The notes beneath the pieces were generated by a model. It was not told where the DNA came from, did no database searches, and worked only from the letters and a program-made list of their open reading frames with translations. From Nakamurella panacisegetis (lineage in GTDB: Bacteria; Actinomycetota; Actinomycetes; Mycobacteriales; Nakamurellaceae), in the NCBI RefSeq assembly GCF_900104535.1, contig NZ_LT629710.1, positions 4,003,501 through 4,067,500 of the forward strand: a stretch of DNA of 64,000 bases, in the 5' to 3' direction. This document shows positions 50,410 to 56,380 of the stretch, piece by piece. A program made the position numbers and the translations under genes. Each line of letters opens with the position of its first letter. Positions within the stretch are counted from its first letter, which is position 1.

Positions 50410-51363
50410 TCAGCTGGTGATGTCCTTGCGCCGGAACCGGAGCGTCGCGATCAGGACGAACACCAGCGCATAGGCCAGTCCGGCGAAGGCGCCGCGGATC
50501 ATGTCGTCCCAGCGGATCGGGTCGACCACCGCCCCGGTCCAGGCCAGCGAGTAGTGCGTCGGGAGCCAGTTGCGGATGCCGCCCAACGCGGTGATCTGGT
50601 CGAGGATCTGCGACAGGATGGACAGCAGTACGGCTCCGCCGACCGCACCGAGAGGCGCGTCGGTCACGACGCTCAGGAGGAAGGCCAGCCCGGCCACCCA
50701 GGTGAGTTGGACGGCCAGATACCCGACGACCACCAGGAGGCGCAGCAGTCCGGTCCCGGTGTCGAACTGGTCGCCGATCGGCGTCGACAACGGCCCGCTG
50801 CCATACGCGATCAATCCCACGACGTAGGCCGTGGTGGGCAGGATGACCAGGGCTGAGACGGACAGGAATCCGGCGACGAGGATCTTCTGACGCAGGAGCC
50901 GCACCCGGGGTACCGGCATCGCCAGTAGGTACCGCAGCGACGACCAGGACGCCTCCGATGCGATCGTGTCCCCGAAGAACAGGCTGATCACCACGATCAG
51001 CAGGAAGCTGGCCGAGAAGAACAGGGCCACCAGGGCGAAGTTGCCCGCGCCGGACTTGGCCAGGTCGACGAAGGACGTGCTGGTGCTGGAACGGTTGGAG
51101 TTGCTGCTGCCGAAGGAGAACGCCACGAGCAGGATCAGCGGCAGGATCACCATGAAGCCGAGGGACAGCTGGGTGCGCCGCCGGCGCAACTGACGCATGA
51201 GTTCCACCCGCACGGTCAGGGTGTGCCCGGCCCGGTAACCGGCCGGTACACCAGAGGCAGTGGCCGGGAGCGGCGGTCCCATGGAGGCCATCGTGCTGGC
51301 GGCCACGTCGCCCGAGTGGTCGTGACGATGGGCGGCGCCCGGACGGGCCTGGTCGTTCGTCAT
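50410..51363 (-). CDS. ABC-2 type transporter permease
   Basis: The membrane partner of the hydrolase-ABC fusion encoded just upstream. The 317-residue protein has a polar N-terminus of about 60 residues and then six hydrophobic segments, the first QLSLGFMVILPLILLVAFSFG. RYLLAMPVPRVRLLRQK is the loop typical of ABC-2 permeases between helices 2 and 3. A large extracellular loop rich in Ser and Asn (SSNSNRSSTSTSF) follows helix 1. The ATG overlaps the stop of the ATPase gene (ATGA), so the two are co-translated and probably form one exporter. The substrate is unknown. Confidence 0.85.
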   Translation of the reverse strand: MTNDQARPGAAHRHDHSGDVAASTMASMGPPLPATASGVPAGYRAGHTLTVRVELMRQLRRRRTQLSLGFMVILPLILLVAFSFGSSNSNRSSTSTSFVDLAKSGAGNFALVALFFSASFLLIVVISLFFGDTIASEASWSSLRYLLAMPVPRVRLLRQKILVAGFLSVSALVILPTTAYVVGLIAYGSGPLSTPIGDQFDTGTGLLRLLVVVGYLAVQLTWVAGLAFLLSVVTDAPLGAVGGAVLLSILSQILDQITALGGIRNWLPTHYSLAWTGAVVDPIRWDDMIRGAFAGLAYALVFVLIATLRFRRKDITS

Positions 51364-54300
51364 CGGGAACCTCCGGCGATGGGGTCGGCGGCGCCGACCA
51401 ATTCGAGGAAAACGTCCTCGAGACGATTCCGTGGGGCCGCCGTCCTGATTCCCACCCCGGCTCCGACCAGCGCGCTGACCGCGTCGGCCGGCCGGCACGA
51501 CCCGAGATCGGCGCGCAGCAGACCACCATCCCGCCGATCCAGGTCGGGGTCGTCCAGCTCGACCGCGCGCACGCCGGGCAGGGATCTCAGCACGGTGATC
51601 GCCCGGTCCGGATCGTCGACCGAGAAGACCATGTCACCGGAGGCCGAGACCATGTCGGCCACTGTCCCGGCCGCGATCGTGCGGCCCTGATGGACGACCA
51701 CGACATGACTGCACGTCTGCTCGACCTCGGAAAGCATGTGGCTGGAGACCAGGACCGTGCGTCCGGTCGCGGCGTATCCCCGGAGCACCTCGCGCATGGC
51801 ATGGATCTGGGGCGGGTCAAGGCCGTTGGTCGGCTCGTCGAGCAGGAGCAGGTCGGGTAGTCCGAGCATGGCCTGGGCGATGGCCAATCGTTGACGCATG
51901 CCCTGCGAGTACGTCTTGACCTTGCGGTTGATCGCCTTGCCGAGGGCGGCGATCTCCAGTGCCTCGTCGAGGTGGGCGTCGGCCCGCGGACGCCCGGTCG
52001 CCCGCCAGTACAGGTCGAGGTTGGCCCGGCCGGAAAGGTGCGGCAGGAAACCGGATCCCTCCACGAAACTCCCGATCCGGGCCAGGATCTCGGCCCCCGG
52101 GCGCACCCGCTGGCCGAACACCCTGATCTCCCCCGAGGTCGGGGTGATCAGACCCATCACCATCCGCAGGGTGGTCGTCTTGCCGGCCCCGTTGGGCCCG
52201 AGCAACCCCAGGACCTGGCCCGCCCCCACGGTGAAGGTGACGTCCGTCACCGCGGCCACGCCCCCGGGATACGACTTTCCGAGCCCGGTGATCACCAACG
52301 GCAACCGGTCCGCCGGCGACGGTGACGGCGCACCGGCGGCCGCCGGCGCCGGGCGGCGGGTACGGACCCGGCCACCCAGAACCAGCGCCACGACGGCGAT
52401 CAATGCCAGAACGATCAGGGCCACCAGCGTGCCGACCGGAATGTCTCCGGCCGACACCCGGATCCCGCCGACCTCGGGAACGGTGACGACGTGGACGTTG
52501 CCGGCCAGCCCCACGCGGTACACCGCCGGAGCAGTCGGCCCGGCATACGCCTGATCGGTGGTGGTCAAGGTGATCTCGATCCGCGAACCGGCCTCGACCT
52601 GCAGGGCCACGGCCGGGAGGTTGATCGTCACGGTCCTGGAGCTGCCGTCGGCCGGAAGACCGGTCAGGCGGACGGGCGCGACCGCGTTGCCGGCCAGGGT
52701 TCGCACACCGCCGGCGCTGATCTTGCTGATCGACGCGAACAGGACGGCACCGGAACGGTCGGACCCGGCGCTCTGCGGAAGCGACACGGACGAGACCGAG
52801 ACCGACACCGTTGGTGTCCCGGCGATCACCGTCAGGGCCTTCAGCGGAGCCGAGGTGAACCGGGCCACCTGGCCCGGGATACCGGACGACAACGCTGACA
52901 AGGCGTTGCCGGCCAACGCGGACAAGCCGGGGATGGCGGAGATCCCGGCTGGTGCGCCGCCGGGTGGATTCAGCACGGTCTGGGTCGCGCCGGTGAGCGG
53001 AATCGCTACCTCCGGCGTCCGGGCCGCTCCAGACACACCCAGATAGGCCGGCACCTGCAGCGTCCGGGTCCGGGCCACCCCGGTGTCGGACAGCGGGCCA
53101 TCGACGCTGTAGGAGAACGCCGTTGACGGCTTGGCGCCGATCCCGGAGAGGTAGTACGAGAACCAGTTGGTGATCCGGTCCTGGGTCACCTGGTCCGGAC
53201 TACCGCCGTCGTGACCGCCGTTGTACCAGGTCACAGCGACCGTGGTGCCGCGGGCGGCGATGGCGCGGGCGTTGGCGTCGGCCTGGTCGAGCCCGAAGAG
53301 GGTGTCTCGTTCGCCTTGGACGAGCAGGGTCGGGGCGGTGATCCGGCCGACCACCGCGGAGGGGCTCGAGCGGGCCAGCAGGGCGGACAGCGTCGAGTCG
53401 AGCATGCCGGTCTGCGCGGCGGTCGAATAGGCCGCGCACAGAGCCGGCATCAGCCGGCCGCAGCCGGTGGTGGTCGCCGACGAGGAGGCCGAGCCGTCGG
53501 TGACCGATCCGGCGTTCGGGTCCGGCGGTGCCGCGGTGGTGGACTTTCCCCGGCCGAACCCGGCGTCGCCGTTGTCGCTGGGCGCCGTCGTGCTGGTCGC
53601 GCCGCTCAGAGCGGATCCGGAGATGACGGAGGCCAGCAGATTCGCCGCCCACGACTTCTTGAATACTCCGTTCGAGCTGCCGTCGGCCTGCGCCGGGGTC
53701 CCGTCGGCGACGGCGCCGGGCGGGGCGACCGCGTTCGGGAACAGCGCGGTGGCCAGGTTGTTCCACGTGATCAACGGGGCCACGGCATCGATGCGGGGAT
53801 CGGTTCCGGCCAGCATGAGGGACAGCGCCCCACCGTAGGACGCGCCGGTGACACCGACCCGAGGATCACCCGGCCCGTCCAGCTGCACTTCTGGGCGAGT
53901 GGCCAGCCAGCTGACCAGCGCTCGGGCGTCGGGGACCTCGTATTCGAGCGAGTCGAGTGCGATCTGACCGGACGAGTGGCCGAATCCACGGGCGGAATAC
54001 GCAAGGACCACGAAACCGCGAGCGGCCAGCGTTCTGGCGTCGCCGGCAACGGACTGCTTCGATCCACCGAAACCGTGCGCCATCAGCACGGCCGGGGCGC
54101 GTCCGGATCCCGGCGGCAGGTAGAGCGTGGCGTCGATCTTCACCTGGCCGGTGACCCCCGGCCCGCCGGGCACCGAGATCGTCTCGTCCTGCGTCCGGAC
54201 GGCCGACGACGGTTCGGCGTTCTTCGGTGTTGCGACGAGCACGATGGCGGCCACGATCACCAGGGCCACCAGCGAGGCGAGCAATTTCCGGGTCCGACCG

Positions 54301-54383
54301 GCGAGCAGACGGTCCAGGCGCACCCTCACCTGCGCGGCCGGGTGGTGGACGCGGCGGCGATGATCAAGGGGCGCATCAGTCAA
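51360..54383 (-). CDS. Fusion of an exported alpha/beta hydrolase and an ABC ATPase
   Basis: A 1007-residue protein joining two functions. A helix at about residues 34-52 anchors an outside domain. This domain is an alpha/beta hydrolase of the X-Pro dipeptidyl-peptidase/S15 type, with Ser182 (GASYGG), Asp360 (QGERDTLF) and His391 (NGGHDGG), followed by a PepX_C-like beta domain. A second helix at about 650-670 returns to the cytoplasm. There the ABC domain has Walker A GPNGAGKTTT (Lys735), the signature YSQGMRQRLAIAQAM and Walker B LLLLDEPTNGLD. It is coupled to the permease gene. The start appears to be TTG; GTG at residue 19 is the alternative. No ribosome site is clear at either. The substrate is unknown. 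Confidence 0.87.
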   Translation of the reverse strand: MTDAPLDHRRRVHHPAAQVRVRLDRLLAGRTRKLLASLVALVIVAAIVLVATPKNAEPSSAVRTQDETISVPGGPGVTGQVKIDATLYLPPGSGRAPAVLMAHGFGGSKQSVAGDARTLAARGFVVLAYSARGFGHSSGQIALDSLEYEVPDARALVSWLATRPEVQLDGPGDPRVGVTGASYGGALSLMLAGTDPRIDAVAPLITWNNLATALFPNAVAPPGAVADGTPAQADGSSNGVFKKSWAANLLASVISGSALSGATSTTAPSDNGDAGFGRGKSTTAAPPDPNAGSVTDGSASSSATTTGCGRLMPALCAAYSTAAQTGMLDSTLSALLARSSPSAVVGRITAPTLLVQGERDTLFGLDQADANARAIAARGTTVAVTWYNGGHDGGSPDQVTQDRITNWFSYYLSGIGAKPSTAFSYSVDGPLSDTGVARTRTLQVPAYLGVSGAARTPEVAIPLTGATQTVLNPPGGAPAGISAIPGLSALAGNALSALSSGIPGQVARFTSAPLKALTVIAGTPTVSVSVSSVSLPQSAGSDRSGAVLFASISKISAGGVRTLAGNAVAPVRLTGLPADGSSRTVTINLPAVALQVEAGSRIEITLTTTDQAYAGPTAPAVYRVGLAGNVHVVTVPEVGGIRVSAGDIPVGTLVALIVLALIAVVALVLGGRVRTRRPAPAAAGAPSPSPADRLPLVITGLGKSYPGGVAAVTDVTFTVGAGQVLGLLGPNGAGKTTTLRMVMGLITPTSGEIRVFGQRVRPGAEILARIGSFVEGSGFLPHLSGRANLDLYWRATGRPRADAHLDEALEIAALGKAINRKVKTYSQGMRQRLAIAQAMLGLPDLLLLDEPTNGLDPPQIHAMREVLRGYAATGRTVLVSSHMLSEVEQTCSHVVVVHQGRTIAAGTVADMVSASGDMVFSVDDPDRAITVLRSLPGVRAVELDDPDLDRRDGGLLRADLGSCRPADAVSALVGAGVGIRTAAPRNRLEDVFLELVGAADPIAGGSR

Positions 54384-54439: not shown

Positions 54440-56380
54440 GTGAGACCCGATGACATCGCCCAGCTGAAGATCCCCGGTCGACCCGCGATCACTCCGAACG
54501 GGGAGGTACTCGTCGCTGTCGCCACCTGCGAACTGGACGCCGACCGCTACGGCGGTTCGTTGTGGCAGTTCGGAGCGGCCGGAGGGCGCCGCCTCACCTT
54601 CGGTCCGCGGGACACGTCCCCCGTGCTGTCACCGGACGGGCACACCTTGGCCTTCCTCCGTTCGCCGGCGACCGGCCCCGCGCAGTTGCACGTCATCGAC
54701 CTGAACGGCGGCGAGGCGACGAAGCTCACCTCTCACCCGATGTCGGTGCAGCACCCGACTTTCTCGCCGTCCGGTGATCGGATCGCCTACGTCACCGCGG
54801 TGCCCGAGACGGGTCGCTACGGCACCGACGCCGAGGTCGGCGCCGAAGCCGAAGCGCCCCGACTGATCGACCGCCTCTCCTACCGGCGCGACGGCCGGGG
54901 CTTCCTGCTCGACCAGCCGGATCAGATCTTCGTCCTCGATCTCTCCGGCGACCGGGACGGCGAGCCGGTCGCCGTCACCCGGGAACCGGATCTGCGGGGC
55001 GTCCCGGTCTGGCTGGACCAGGATCGCCTGGCGTACGTCCGGGCGGCCCGCCCCGACCTTCCGCAGGCCGAGTTCGCGGTGGTCGCCGCGGATCCCGGGG
55101 GCTCCGAGCCGTCTCCCGGGGAGTTGCTGTGTGTGCTTCCGGGAAACGCCGAACAGGCGGTCGCGGTCGATGGCGACCTGTACTACCTGGGGGCGGAATT
55201 TGCCGGAATCGATTCGTCGGGGCGGACCACGGCGCTGTGGACGCTCCCGTCCGGCGCCGGCACGCCCCGGCGGATGACCGGCTGCGACGTCGAGGTCGAC
55301 GGCACCTGCCGGCCGGTCCGGCACGGTGACCACATGCTGGTCGCGGTGCTTCACCGGGGCACCGTCGGTGTACGCACCGTGGCGCTGTCGGCGGACCGAC
55401 TCGACCTCGAGGACCTGCCGGTGGTTCTCGGCGGCCCGCGGGTGGTTTCGGCCTTTGCCGCTGCGCAGGGCGTGCTGGCCGCGGTGGTGGCCGACCCGAG
55501 CAGTGCCGGCGAGGTGATCACCGTCGGGTTGGCGCCGGACGGTGCGCTCGCCGGGTCGGAACGGGTGCTCACCGAACTGGGCGCCGAGGTCCGGGCCGGT
55601 GGGCTGGCCCGCCAGATCGAGATCACGGCCAGCGCCCCTGACGGCTATCCGGTTCATGGCTTTTTGGTGCTGCCGTCGGGGGAGGGGCCGCATCCGGTCC
55701 TGTTGGATGTGCACGGCGGCCCCCACGCCGCCTACGGATGGGGTCTGTTCGACGAGGCCCAGGTGTATGCCGGAGCCGGGTACGCGGTGGTGCTGCCCAA
55801 TCCCCGCGGCTCGGCCGGGTACGGGCACGAGCACGGCCGGTCGGTGCTGGGGCGCCTGGGCACCATCGACGCCGACGACGTCCTGGCGTTGCTCGACGCA
55901 GCCCTGGCCCGGCCCGACCTCGATGCGTCAAGGGTCGGGGTGATGGGCGGTTCGTACGGCGGATTCATGACGTCCTGGCTGGCGTCGCACGCCCCGGACC
56001 GGTTCACCGCGGCCATCAGCGAGCGAGCGGTGAACGCCTGGGACAGCTTCGCCGGGTCGAGCGACATCGGTCACTACTTCGCCGAGGTGTACGCCGGTCC
56101 GACTCGCGAGACCCAGTGGCAGGCTTCGCCTCTGGCCTACGCCGACGACATCTCGCTCCCGCTGTTGATCATCCATTCCGAACATGATTGGCGGTGTCCG
56201 CTCGAGCAGGGCCAGCGACTGTACGTCGCCCTGAAGAAGCGGGGGGCCGAGGTGGAGATGCTGTTGTTCCCGTCCGAGGGGCACGAGTTGTCCCGGTCGG
56301 GGCGACCGCGTCATCGCCTGCAGCGGTTCGAGGCCATCCTCGCCTGGTGGGAGCGGTACCTACCGGTGGAACGACCCTGA
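54440..56380 (+). CDS. S9-family prolyl oligopeptidase/acylaminoacyl peptidase
   Basis: A 646-residue cytoplasmic serine peptidase with no signal peptide. The first 370 residues form a beta-propeller with repeated WD40-like TolB strands (SPVLSPDGHTLAFLRS, HPTFSPSGDRIAYV). The C-terminal alpha/beta hydrolase has the catalytic Ser505 in VMGGSYGGFMTSW, Asp583 in HSEHDWRCP and His615 in SEGHELSRSG. The order and spacing fit acylaminoacyl or dipeptidyl peptidases of family S9. It is divergent from the hydrolase-ABC fusion, so two peptidase-like hydrolases share one short promoter region. The leaderless GTG start is supported by TACGGT seven bases upstream. Confidence 0.93.
   Translation: MRPDDIAQLKIPGRPAITPNGEVLVAVATCELDADRYGGSLWQFGAAGGRRLTFGPRDTSPVLSPDGHTLAFLRSPATGPAQLHVIDLNGGEATKLTSHPMSVQHPTFSPSGDRIAYVTAVPETGRYGTDAEVGAEAEAPRLIDRLSYRRDGRGFLLDQPDQIFVLDLSGDRDGEPVAVTREPDLRGVPVWLDQDRLAYVRAARPDLPQAEFAVVAADPGGSEPSPGELLCVLPGNAEQAVAVDGDLYYLGAEFAGIDSSGRTTALWTLPSGAGTPRRMTGCDVEVDGTCRPVRHGDHMLVAVLHRGTVGVRTVALSADRLDLEDLPVVLGGPRVVSAFAAAQGVLAAVVADPSSAGEVITVGLAPDGALAGSERVLTELGAEVRAGGLARQIEITASAPDGYPVHGFLVLPSGEGPHPVLLDVHGGPHAAYGWGLFDEAQVYAGAGYAVVLPNPRGSAGYGHEHGRSVLGRLGTIDADDVLALLDAALARPDLDASRVGVMGGSYGGFMTSWLASHAPDRFTAAISERAVNAWDSFAGSSDIGHYFAEVYAGPTRETQWQASPLAYADDISLPLLIIHSEHDWRCPLEQGQRLYVALKKRGAEVEMLLFPSEGHELSRSGRPRHRLQRFEAILAWWERYLPVERP

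Follow-up and report, generated by a model that had tools for sequence, protein, structure and literature searches.

In the window of Nakamurella panacisegetis DNA analysed here (64,000 nucleotides of contig NZ_LT629710.1, positions 4,003,501 to 4,067,500, from a 5.01 Mb genome in one contig), a single gene encodes both a PaL/S15-like serine hydrolase and the ATPase of an ABC-2-type ATP-binding cassette (ABC) transporter, each preceded by a transmembrane helix (TM1 and TM2), and its end overlaps the start of a gene for an ABC-2 permease. This architecture arose once, long ago, and it is kept together with its predicted fold, a nearly invariant catalytic triad, nearly invariant ATPase motifs and the coupling to the permease. 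We tentatively take the two gene products to form a homodimeric ABC-2 exporter whose tethered hydrolase cuts the exported cargo outside the cell, and given that the analysis is computation-based throughout, our confidence in this combination of export and hydrolysis stops somewhat short of an even chance.

The sequence-only reading from which this work began had described an uninterrupted frame of 1007 residues at 51360-54383 with a Ser182/Asp360/His391 set, and both are present, the frame on the minus strand (the strand had not been given) and the triad at exactly those residues of the alignment. The frame opens mechanically on a TTG codon. Residues 1 to about 19 are unconserved in the alignment and conserved sequence starts near the GTG codons 20 and 22, either of which is a plausible start that may shorten the protein to about 986-988 aa and widen the divergent intergenic gap to about 110-120 bp. 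Pfam recognises Peptidase_S15 at residues 81-225 (75.3 bits, cut-off 23), PepX_C at 505-618 (24.9 bits, cut-off 22.5) and ABC_tran at 713-853 (105.4 bits). AlphaFold models the hydrolase part with a predicted local distance difference test (pLDDT) of 78 and a predicted template modelling score (pTM) of 0.79; for the full-length protein (pLDDT 81, pTM 0.61) it predicts a helix at residues 30-51, the hydrolase with its jelly roll, a second helix at 650-673 and the ATPase. The coordinates of these and the other features are collected in the table.

Table. Features of the fused gene, its permease partner, the divergent neighbour and the related row elsewhere in the genome. Coordinates are positions in the window unless a locus is named.
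Feature	Coordinates	Strand	Basis or remark
Fused gene, TM1 - PaL/S15-like serine hydrolase - TM2 - ABC-2-type ATPase	51360..54383	-	1007 codons; start perhaps GTG at 54326 or 54320
TM1, residues 30-51, N-terminus inside	54231..54296	-	AlphaFold helix; hydrophobicity and charge counts
Predicted extracytoplasmic alpha/beta hydrolase and jelly-roll (PepX_C-like) domain, residues 63-640	52464..54197	-	Pfam, fold and profile matches
Nucleophile Ser182, GASYGG elbow	53838..53840	-	Ser in 127/127 unique fused sequences
Triad Asp360, GERDTLFGL	53304..53306	-	Asp in 127/127 unique fused sequences
Triad His391, GGHDGG	53211..53213	-	His in 126/127 unique fused sequences
C308 and C316, possible extracytoplasmic disulfide	53436..53462	-	each Cys in 126/127 unique fused sequences
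TM2, residues 650-673	52365..52436	-	AlphaFold helix; hydrophobic in 126/127
ABC ATPase and C-terminal extension, residues 696-998	51390..52298	-	Pfam, model, Walker A Lys 127/127
Walker A of the fused ATPase, GPNGAGKT	52176-52199	-	
ABC-2 permease, 317 aa, six hydrophobic segments	50410..51363	-	ABC2_membrane_2 and ABC2_membrane_4 above Pfam cut-off
ATGA stop/start overlap of fusion and permease gene	51360..51363	-	
S9 (acyl-peptide hydrolase-like) peptidase, neighbour judged outside the system	54440..56380	+	Pfam, 8wt1/5yzm matches, neighbourhood counts
Sister row: LolA/RseB-like protein, ABC ATPase, ABC-2 permease	L002:356-3367 (G000:C1 ~1514815-1517826)		overlapping ends

The fusion extends far beyond the genus. 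The 161 loci examined were chosen because they matched and are not a random sample; 129 of them carry the fusion, and the 32 without a fused frame include one frameshifted copy and one that meets a contig end. Hydrolase homologues occur in 17 of 17 genomes of the Nakamurella family, the window's own included, and in 15 of these the hydrolase lies in one open frame of more than 1000 aa, the exceptions being the frameshifted copy (genome G003) and the one at the contig end (G014). In a sample of the class, 44 of 197 genomes (again with the own genome included) from 14 families match at E <= 1e-150, all in open frames no shorter than 793 residues; the fusion was confirmed in 25 of the 44 by reading them in full and is judged from frame length in the remaining ones, and five further genomes at 1e-110 to 1e-150 hold single-hydrolase types only. 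Two genomes of the class sample, G177 (loci L088 and L089) and G032, have two fused-clade hydrolase copies each, and in G177 both copies are fused and each has a permease. A sample of the phylum gave matches in 73 of 296 genomes at 1e-20, and among 20 loci taken from other classes ten are fused in one frame, all ten with an adjoining permease, the other ten having a hydrolase without this ATPase. A scan of named genomes returned 581 hydrolase relatives, and the best 80, which were kept, include Pseudonocardiaceae, Nocardiaceae, Streptomycetaceae, Geodermatophilaceae and others. Among the best 15 of 442 plasmid records, two, both actinobacterial, matched about 80% of the query and the others matched through the ATPase only. 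At the small end of genome size, two genomes of 1.3-1.4 Mb (loci L104 and L105 of genomes G041 and G078) have kept both the fusion and the permease, with a 4-nt overlap between them.

The single origin is drawn from a quick, midpoint-rooted tree of the hydrolase domain, with 104 sequences (72 of the 127 unique fused ones and all 32 single ones) and with support from the Shimodaira-Hasegawa-like approximate likelihood ratio test only, in which the fused sequences form one group with a support of 98. This group also holds two sequences labelled single, namely the frameshifted L070 and the truncated L109. In L070 (L070:5467-8471) the frameshift falls directly after TM2 and the conserved linker resumes in the other frame, so that the split, which may be a true mutation or an assembly error, is no evidence for naturally separate genes. 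Around the other 30 non-fused loci, some of them on short contigs, no permease relative was matched and the few ABC matches were weak (<= 84 bits); these loci look like lone hydrolase relatives. The lone relatives L188-L207 and L219-L227 are mostly of about 500-800 residues, several lying in longer mechanical frames, and have no linked related ABC system. A natural three-gene version of the system, with hydrolase, ATPase and permease apart, was sought and rejected, no permease relative being linked to the hydrolase at those 30 loci.

The catalytic positions of enzyme and ATPase are nearly invariant within the family. Across the 127 unique fused sequences, the nucleophile, the triad aspartate and the Walker A lysine are present in every one and the triad histidine in 126; Walker A, signature, Walker B and H motif are invariant or nearly invariant columns in an alignment of 39 sequences. 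Cys308 and Cys316 are each kept in 126 of the 127, as compared to 23 of the 32 single hydrolases, and a hydrophobic segment was scored at TM1 in 121 and at TM2 in 126. The flank preceding TM1 is more positive than that following it in 125 of 127 sequences, and the ATPase-side flank of TM2 is more positive than the preceding one in 94. These charges fit an inside N-terminus, an outside hydrolase and an inside ATPase. CWB2 cell-wall-binding repeats function outside the cell, and one hydrolase relative from outside the class Actinomycetes (L214:4912-7773) bears three of them in place of the ABC ATPase. Taken together, the flanking charges, the conserved cysteine pair and the CWB2-bearing relative argue strongly for an outward-facing hydrolase, and lend support to the opposed placement of hydrolase and ATPase on one protein that had been proposed at the outset. 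Further, given the near invariance of the triad, the two cysteines and both helices, the predicted serine hydrolase is probably catalytically active. In Halosaccharopolyspora lacisalsi (L168:7914-10745) the architecture is retained and the hydrolase is possibly inactive.

The permease is an equally constant companion. In 117 of 120 loci it lies downstream, no more than 600 bp beyond the end of the match, and the other three loci break off at a contig end (counts of permease, S9 and uvrB given here come from tblastn, those of TerC and RES from gene clusters). Together with the ten of ten fused loci from other classes, this bears out the pairing proposed from the single locus, including the ATGA overlap, and such four-nucleotide xTGA overlaps recur in 117 of the 127 fused loci that are not cut short by a contig edge (ATGA 67, GTGA 48, TTGA 2; repeated loci unmerged). 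The overlap suggests that the two proteins are made in balance, as subunits of a single complex. For the permease, a search up to E 1 turned up no solved relative.

As to the enzyme, the nearest solved fold is that of the lipase PaL (PDB 8yzn; Z 32.4, root-mean-square deviation 3.1 over 457 residues, 25% identity), followed by cocaine esterase (Z about 27), X-Pro peptidases (26.4 and 25.6) and alpha-amino acid ester hydrolases (24.8-26.3). A profile search (best 60 of 199 matches) likewise places PaL far ahead at E 1.2e-33, with cocaine esterase at about 3e-6 and through its C-terminal part only. An alpha/beta hydrolase followed by a jelly roll gives the domain an end-to-end likeness to the PaL-like and CocE/PepX_C hydrolases. 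The additional N-terminal domain of the X-Pro peptidases (residues 1-144 of 1lns, 1-154 of 6nff) is not present, the model aligning from residues 145 and 155 of these chains, and in the full-length model only TM1 and a short tail precede the hydrolase domain. The initial description of the enzyme as X-Pro dipeptidyl-peptidase-like is thus not supported as a label for its function; the Pfam S15 match is itself real, and S15 is best read as a superfamily label. From sequence and model, an ester or lipid substrate appears more likely than Xaa-Pro peptides.

The ATPase offers a further, fainter hint as to the cargo. The top solved relatives of the whole fusion match its ATPase and are ABCA lipid transporters, followed by NosF, and the best subfamily model is drrA (TIGR01188) at 180.2 bits, under its cut-off of 312.45. 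Elsewhere in the same genome, the best ATPase match (43% identical) lies in a three-gene row with overlapping ends, whose permease is 33% identical to that of the window and whose first gene encodes a separate protein of 404 residues with an N-terminal hydrophobic stretch. This first gene is matched in 9 of the 17 Nakamurella genomes, four of them at 29-33% identity only, and a related ATPase adjoins it at all nine loci. Nine homologues match MucB_RseB of Pfam in six cases (best 1.2e-5), lolA of NCBIfam in five (best 1.1e-6) and LolA of Pfam in three (0.029 at best). Measured by branch length, the sister group is the closest to the fused clade in the ATPase tree, and in Actinomycetospora (L111:4242-6499 and L177:4336-6458) a similar row of LolA-like protein, ABC ATPase and permease lies divergently beside the fusion itself. 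Since LolA-fold proteins bind lipids or lipoproteins, the sister row weakly hints that this ABC-2 branch may handle lipidic cargo.

How such a machine could work is suggested by its parts. The complex would consist of two fused proteins and two permeases, (hydrolase-TM-ATPase)2 + (permease)2, where both the 2+2 stoichiometry and the export direction would follow by analogy with the ABC-2 class. One helix on either side would anchor each hydrolase to the outside of the membrane, the second of them leading into the cytoplasmic ATPase. ATP binding and hydrolysis would drive the permease pair to deliver its cargo, a hydrophobic and probably acylated or ester-bearing compound, to the outer leaflet, where the two tethered PaL-type serine hydrolases would cut it, a step that could make export irreversible or convert the cargo into its mature form. 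The tether to the ATPase would ensure one enzyme per ATPase, close to the exit. Processing of a cargo at the outer face is plausible on this arrangement, and the parts point only weakly to hydrolysis of the exported compound by the tethered enzyme. The retention of the fusion in genomes of 1.3-1.4 Mb favours a general role.

Several observations weigh against this reading of an exporter that processes its cargo. The full-length model, with a pTM of 0.61, is unreliable for the placement of the domains relative to each other, the charge rule at TM2 is satisfied in no more than 94 of 127 sequences, and asparagine replaces the triad histidine in one of the 127 (L168), in an otherwise clear alignment. 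The S15/PaL fold acts on amide and peptide as well as ester substrates, as seen from CocE, the X-Pro peptidases and the alpha-amino acid ester hydrolases (Z 24.8-27.2). The ABCA matches mirror the ATPase class at large and have little bearing on cargo. On the sister row, the protein of the own genome scores 19 bits with lolA, whose cut-off is 112, and matches neither LolA nor MucB_RseB of Pfam, a profile of its family matched no solved structure, and the first protein of the Actinomycetospora row has no significant Pfam match and was recognised by its similarity to the Nakamurella protein. Moreover, the order of groups in the ATPase tree is unsettled, with several long branches.

It is instead conceivable, if unlikely, that the system is a detoxification pump, whose outer esterase renders antibiotics or xenobiotic esters inactive while its ABC-2 part expels them in the manner of DrrAB-like resistance. 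The preference of the ATPase for the drrA model (albeit under the cut-off) and the fold shared by the hydrolase with alpha-amino acid ester hydrolases and cocaine esterase speak for such a pump. However, its inheritance looks vertical: every one of the 17 Nakamurella genomes has the hydrolase, and each of the 17 Nakamurella rows has uvrB inside the fetched stretch. It is also kept in the genomes of 1.3-1.4 Mb. No neighbour cluster besides the permease exceeds 19 of 41 groups, though only nine representatives of the clusters were annotated, three of these without a Pfam match, so that an unnamed partner is possible. A RES-domain gene is found in 42 loci.

A rather less probable alternative dispenses with transport altogether and has the ATPase and permease pull on the tethered enzyme to activate it, as FtsEX does with wall hydrolases. 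The covalent link of hydrolase and ATPase through a transmembrane helix would suit mechanical coupling, and the hydrolase relative L214 bears wall-binding repeats. Yet the permease matches ABC-2 families and has no FtsX-family match in Pfam, and the linker from TM2 to the ATPase differs greatly in length as well as in sequence from one homologue to another and is of low confidence in the model, which would make it a poor rod.

Still less probable, to our mind, is a version of the proposal first made for this locus, a peptide exporter that removes X-Pro dipeptides or leader peptides at the outer face and works with the cytoplasmic S9 peptidase, encoded divergently across the gap of 56 bp, as the third member of a peptide-handling trio. 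The S15 and PepX_C matches above cut-off and the alignment of X-Pro peptidases at Z 25.6-26.4 are in its favour, but PaL is the closer relative by sequence and by fold, and no conserved small peptide gene was noticed, short genes having had no dedicated search. The S9 gene is present as described and by sequence encodes an acyl-peptide hydrolase-like enzyme (8wt1, 5yzm). In favour of the trio, a divergent S9 gene recurs upstream of the fusion in 46 of 120 loci, of which 37 are from Pseudonocardiaceae and 9 belong to the 17 Nakamurella rows, one locus being counted twice there; 14 of the 46 have no uvrB in the fetched stretch, and that S9 is kept without uvrB makes it more than a uvrB passenger, a point that counts against our leaving it out of the system. 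The S9 gene does not, however, accompany the transporter wherever the latter occurs. Only in seven of the nine Nakamurella rows that have it is it close to the fusion, at a distance of 145-364 bp from the match. The other groups have 37 loci that extend 4.5 kb or more upstream, and none of these shows S9 or TerC. In Pseudonocardiaceae it is TerC that occupies the place beside the fusion: of 56 loci with at least 4.5 kb upstream, 52 have TerC, 37 have S9 and 27 have uvrB, and all 37 with S9 also have TerC, S9 beginning 1.4-3.5 kb away. Being rarer than the unrelated TerC and limited to two lineages, the S9 gene is judged to be outside the system; the link looks like a gene order retained in these two lineages, and a role in the same pathway as the transporter is possible.

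Lastly, an artefact in which a sequencing error joined two neighbouring genes, which might be suspected from the unusual length and from the one Nakamurella copy split by a frameshift, has practically no probability left: the fusion stands in 129 of 161 loci and in many genomes independent of each other, which rules out a sequencing error or chance frame.

Our preferred reading of an exporter with a tethered outer hydrolase has precedents in kind among known systems, each of which differs from it in composition. DrrAB-type exporters resemble the system in having an ATPase with a C-terminal extension beside a separate ABC-2 permease, but an ordinary DrrA is not known to carry membrane helices or an enzyme on the outside, and the fused ATPase stays under the curated DrrA cut-off (180 against 312 bits). 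Peptidase-containing ABC transporters (PCATs) keep their cysteine protease, of family C39, in the cytoplasm, fused to an exporter that has a membrane core of its own, and process the cargo during export; they too unite hydrolase and transporter in one polypeptide, whereas the present fusion places an outer serine hydrolase on an ABC-2 ATPase, and no C39 is found among its ten Pfam matches and no exporter transmembrane core in the fused ATPase. The PaL lipase (8yzn/8yzo, deposited as 'Lipase') is alike in hydrolase and jelly roll over nearly the whole domain, with the nucleophile, Asp and His regions in common, but its crystallised chain of 505 residues is a lone hydrolase without the ABC ATPase. 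CocE, the alpha-amino acid ester hydrolases and the X-Pro peptidases share the two-domain fold and the S15 and PepX_C models, at 15-18% identity, but their solved chains of about 570-800 residues are again without an ABC ATPase. Closer to home, the sister row has the same succession of ATPase and permease with overlapping ends, but its LolA/RseB-like first gene is separate.

A published parallel lies in family 3.A.1.145 of the Transporter Classification, where, in an excerpt of PMC3924187, the Myxococcus protein Q1D520 is described as an ABC-2 permease fused to an M1 aminopeptidase, which the authors take as a hint to the cargo. Here too a component of an ABC-2 exporter is fused to a hydrolase, but going by that excerpt the enzyme sits on the permease instead of the ATPase and is a C-terminal zinc peptidase of another family. 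Streptomyces RagAB, which appears in a list in the same excerpt, was considered as a possible characterised member; by eye and without a family scan, no obvious RagAB-like kinase/regulator operon was seen at seven loci (three of Streptomycetaceae, four of another family). No study of this fusion is among the literature matches listed, whose coverage is open-access and leaves most subscription journals outside. Fusions of hydrolase and transporter are known in kind; among these matches there was none in which a membrane helix links the ATPase subunit to an outward serine hydrolase.

An ABC ATPase is normally either a soluble subunit or part of one polypeptide with the channel. That one should be joined across the membrane to an outer enzyme, in several classes of the phylum and in genomes of 6-10 Mb as well as 1.3 Mb, invites a bolder and rather doubtful extension of the reading, a 'flip and clip' in which a membrane-spanning ATPase, inherited from early Actinomycetota, would carry an outward lipase that edits each lipid delivered and so serves the maturation of envelope lipids. 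The family is concealed by annotation, as the only annotated record seen, from Tsukamurella, names the fusion 'alpha/beta fold hydrolase' and mentions the hydrolase only. If the enzyme does act on the cargo, the system would be a compact case of export coupled to processing, and its invariant serine would provide a direct handle, through covalent probes or an S182A variant, for trapping the substrate of an orphan exporter.

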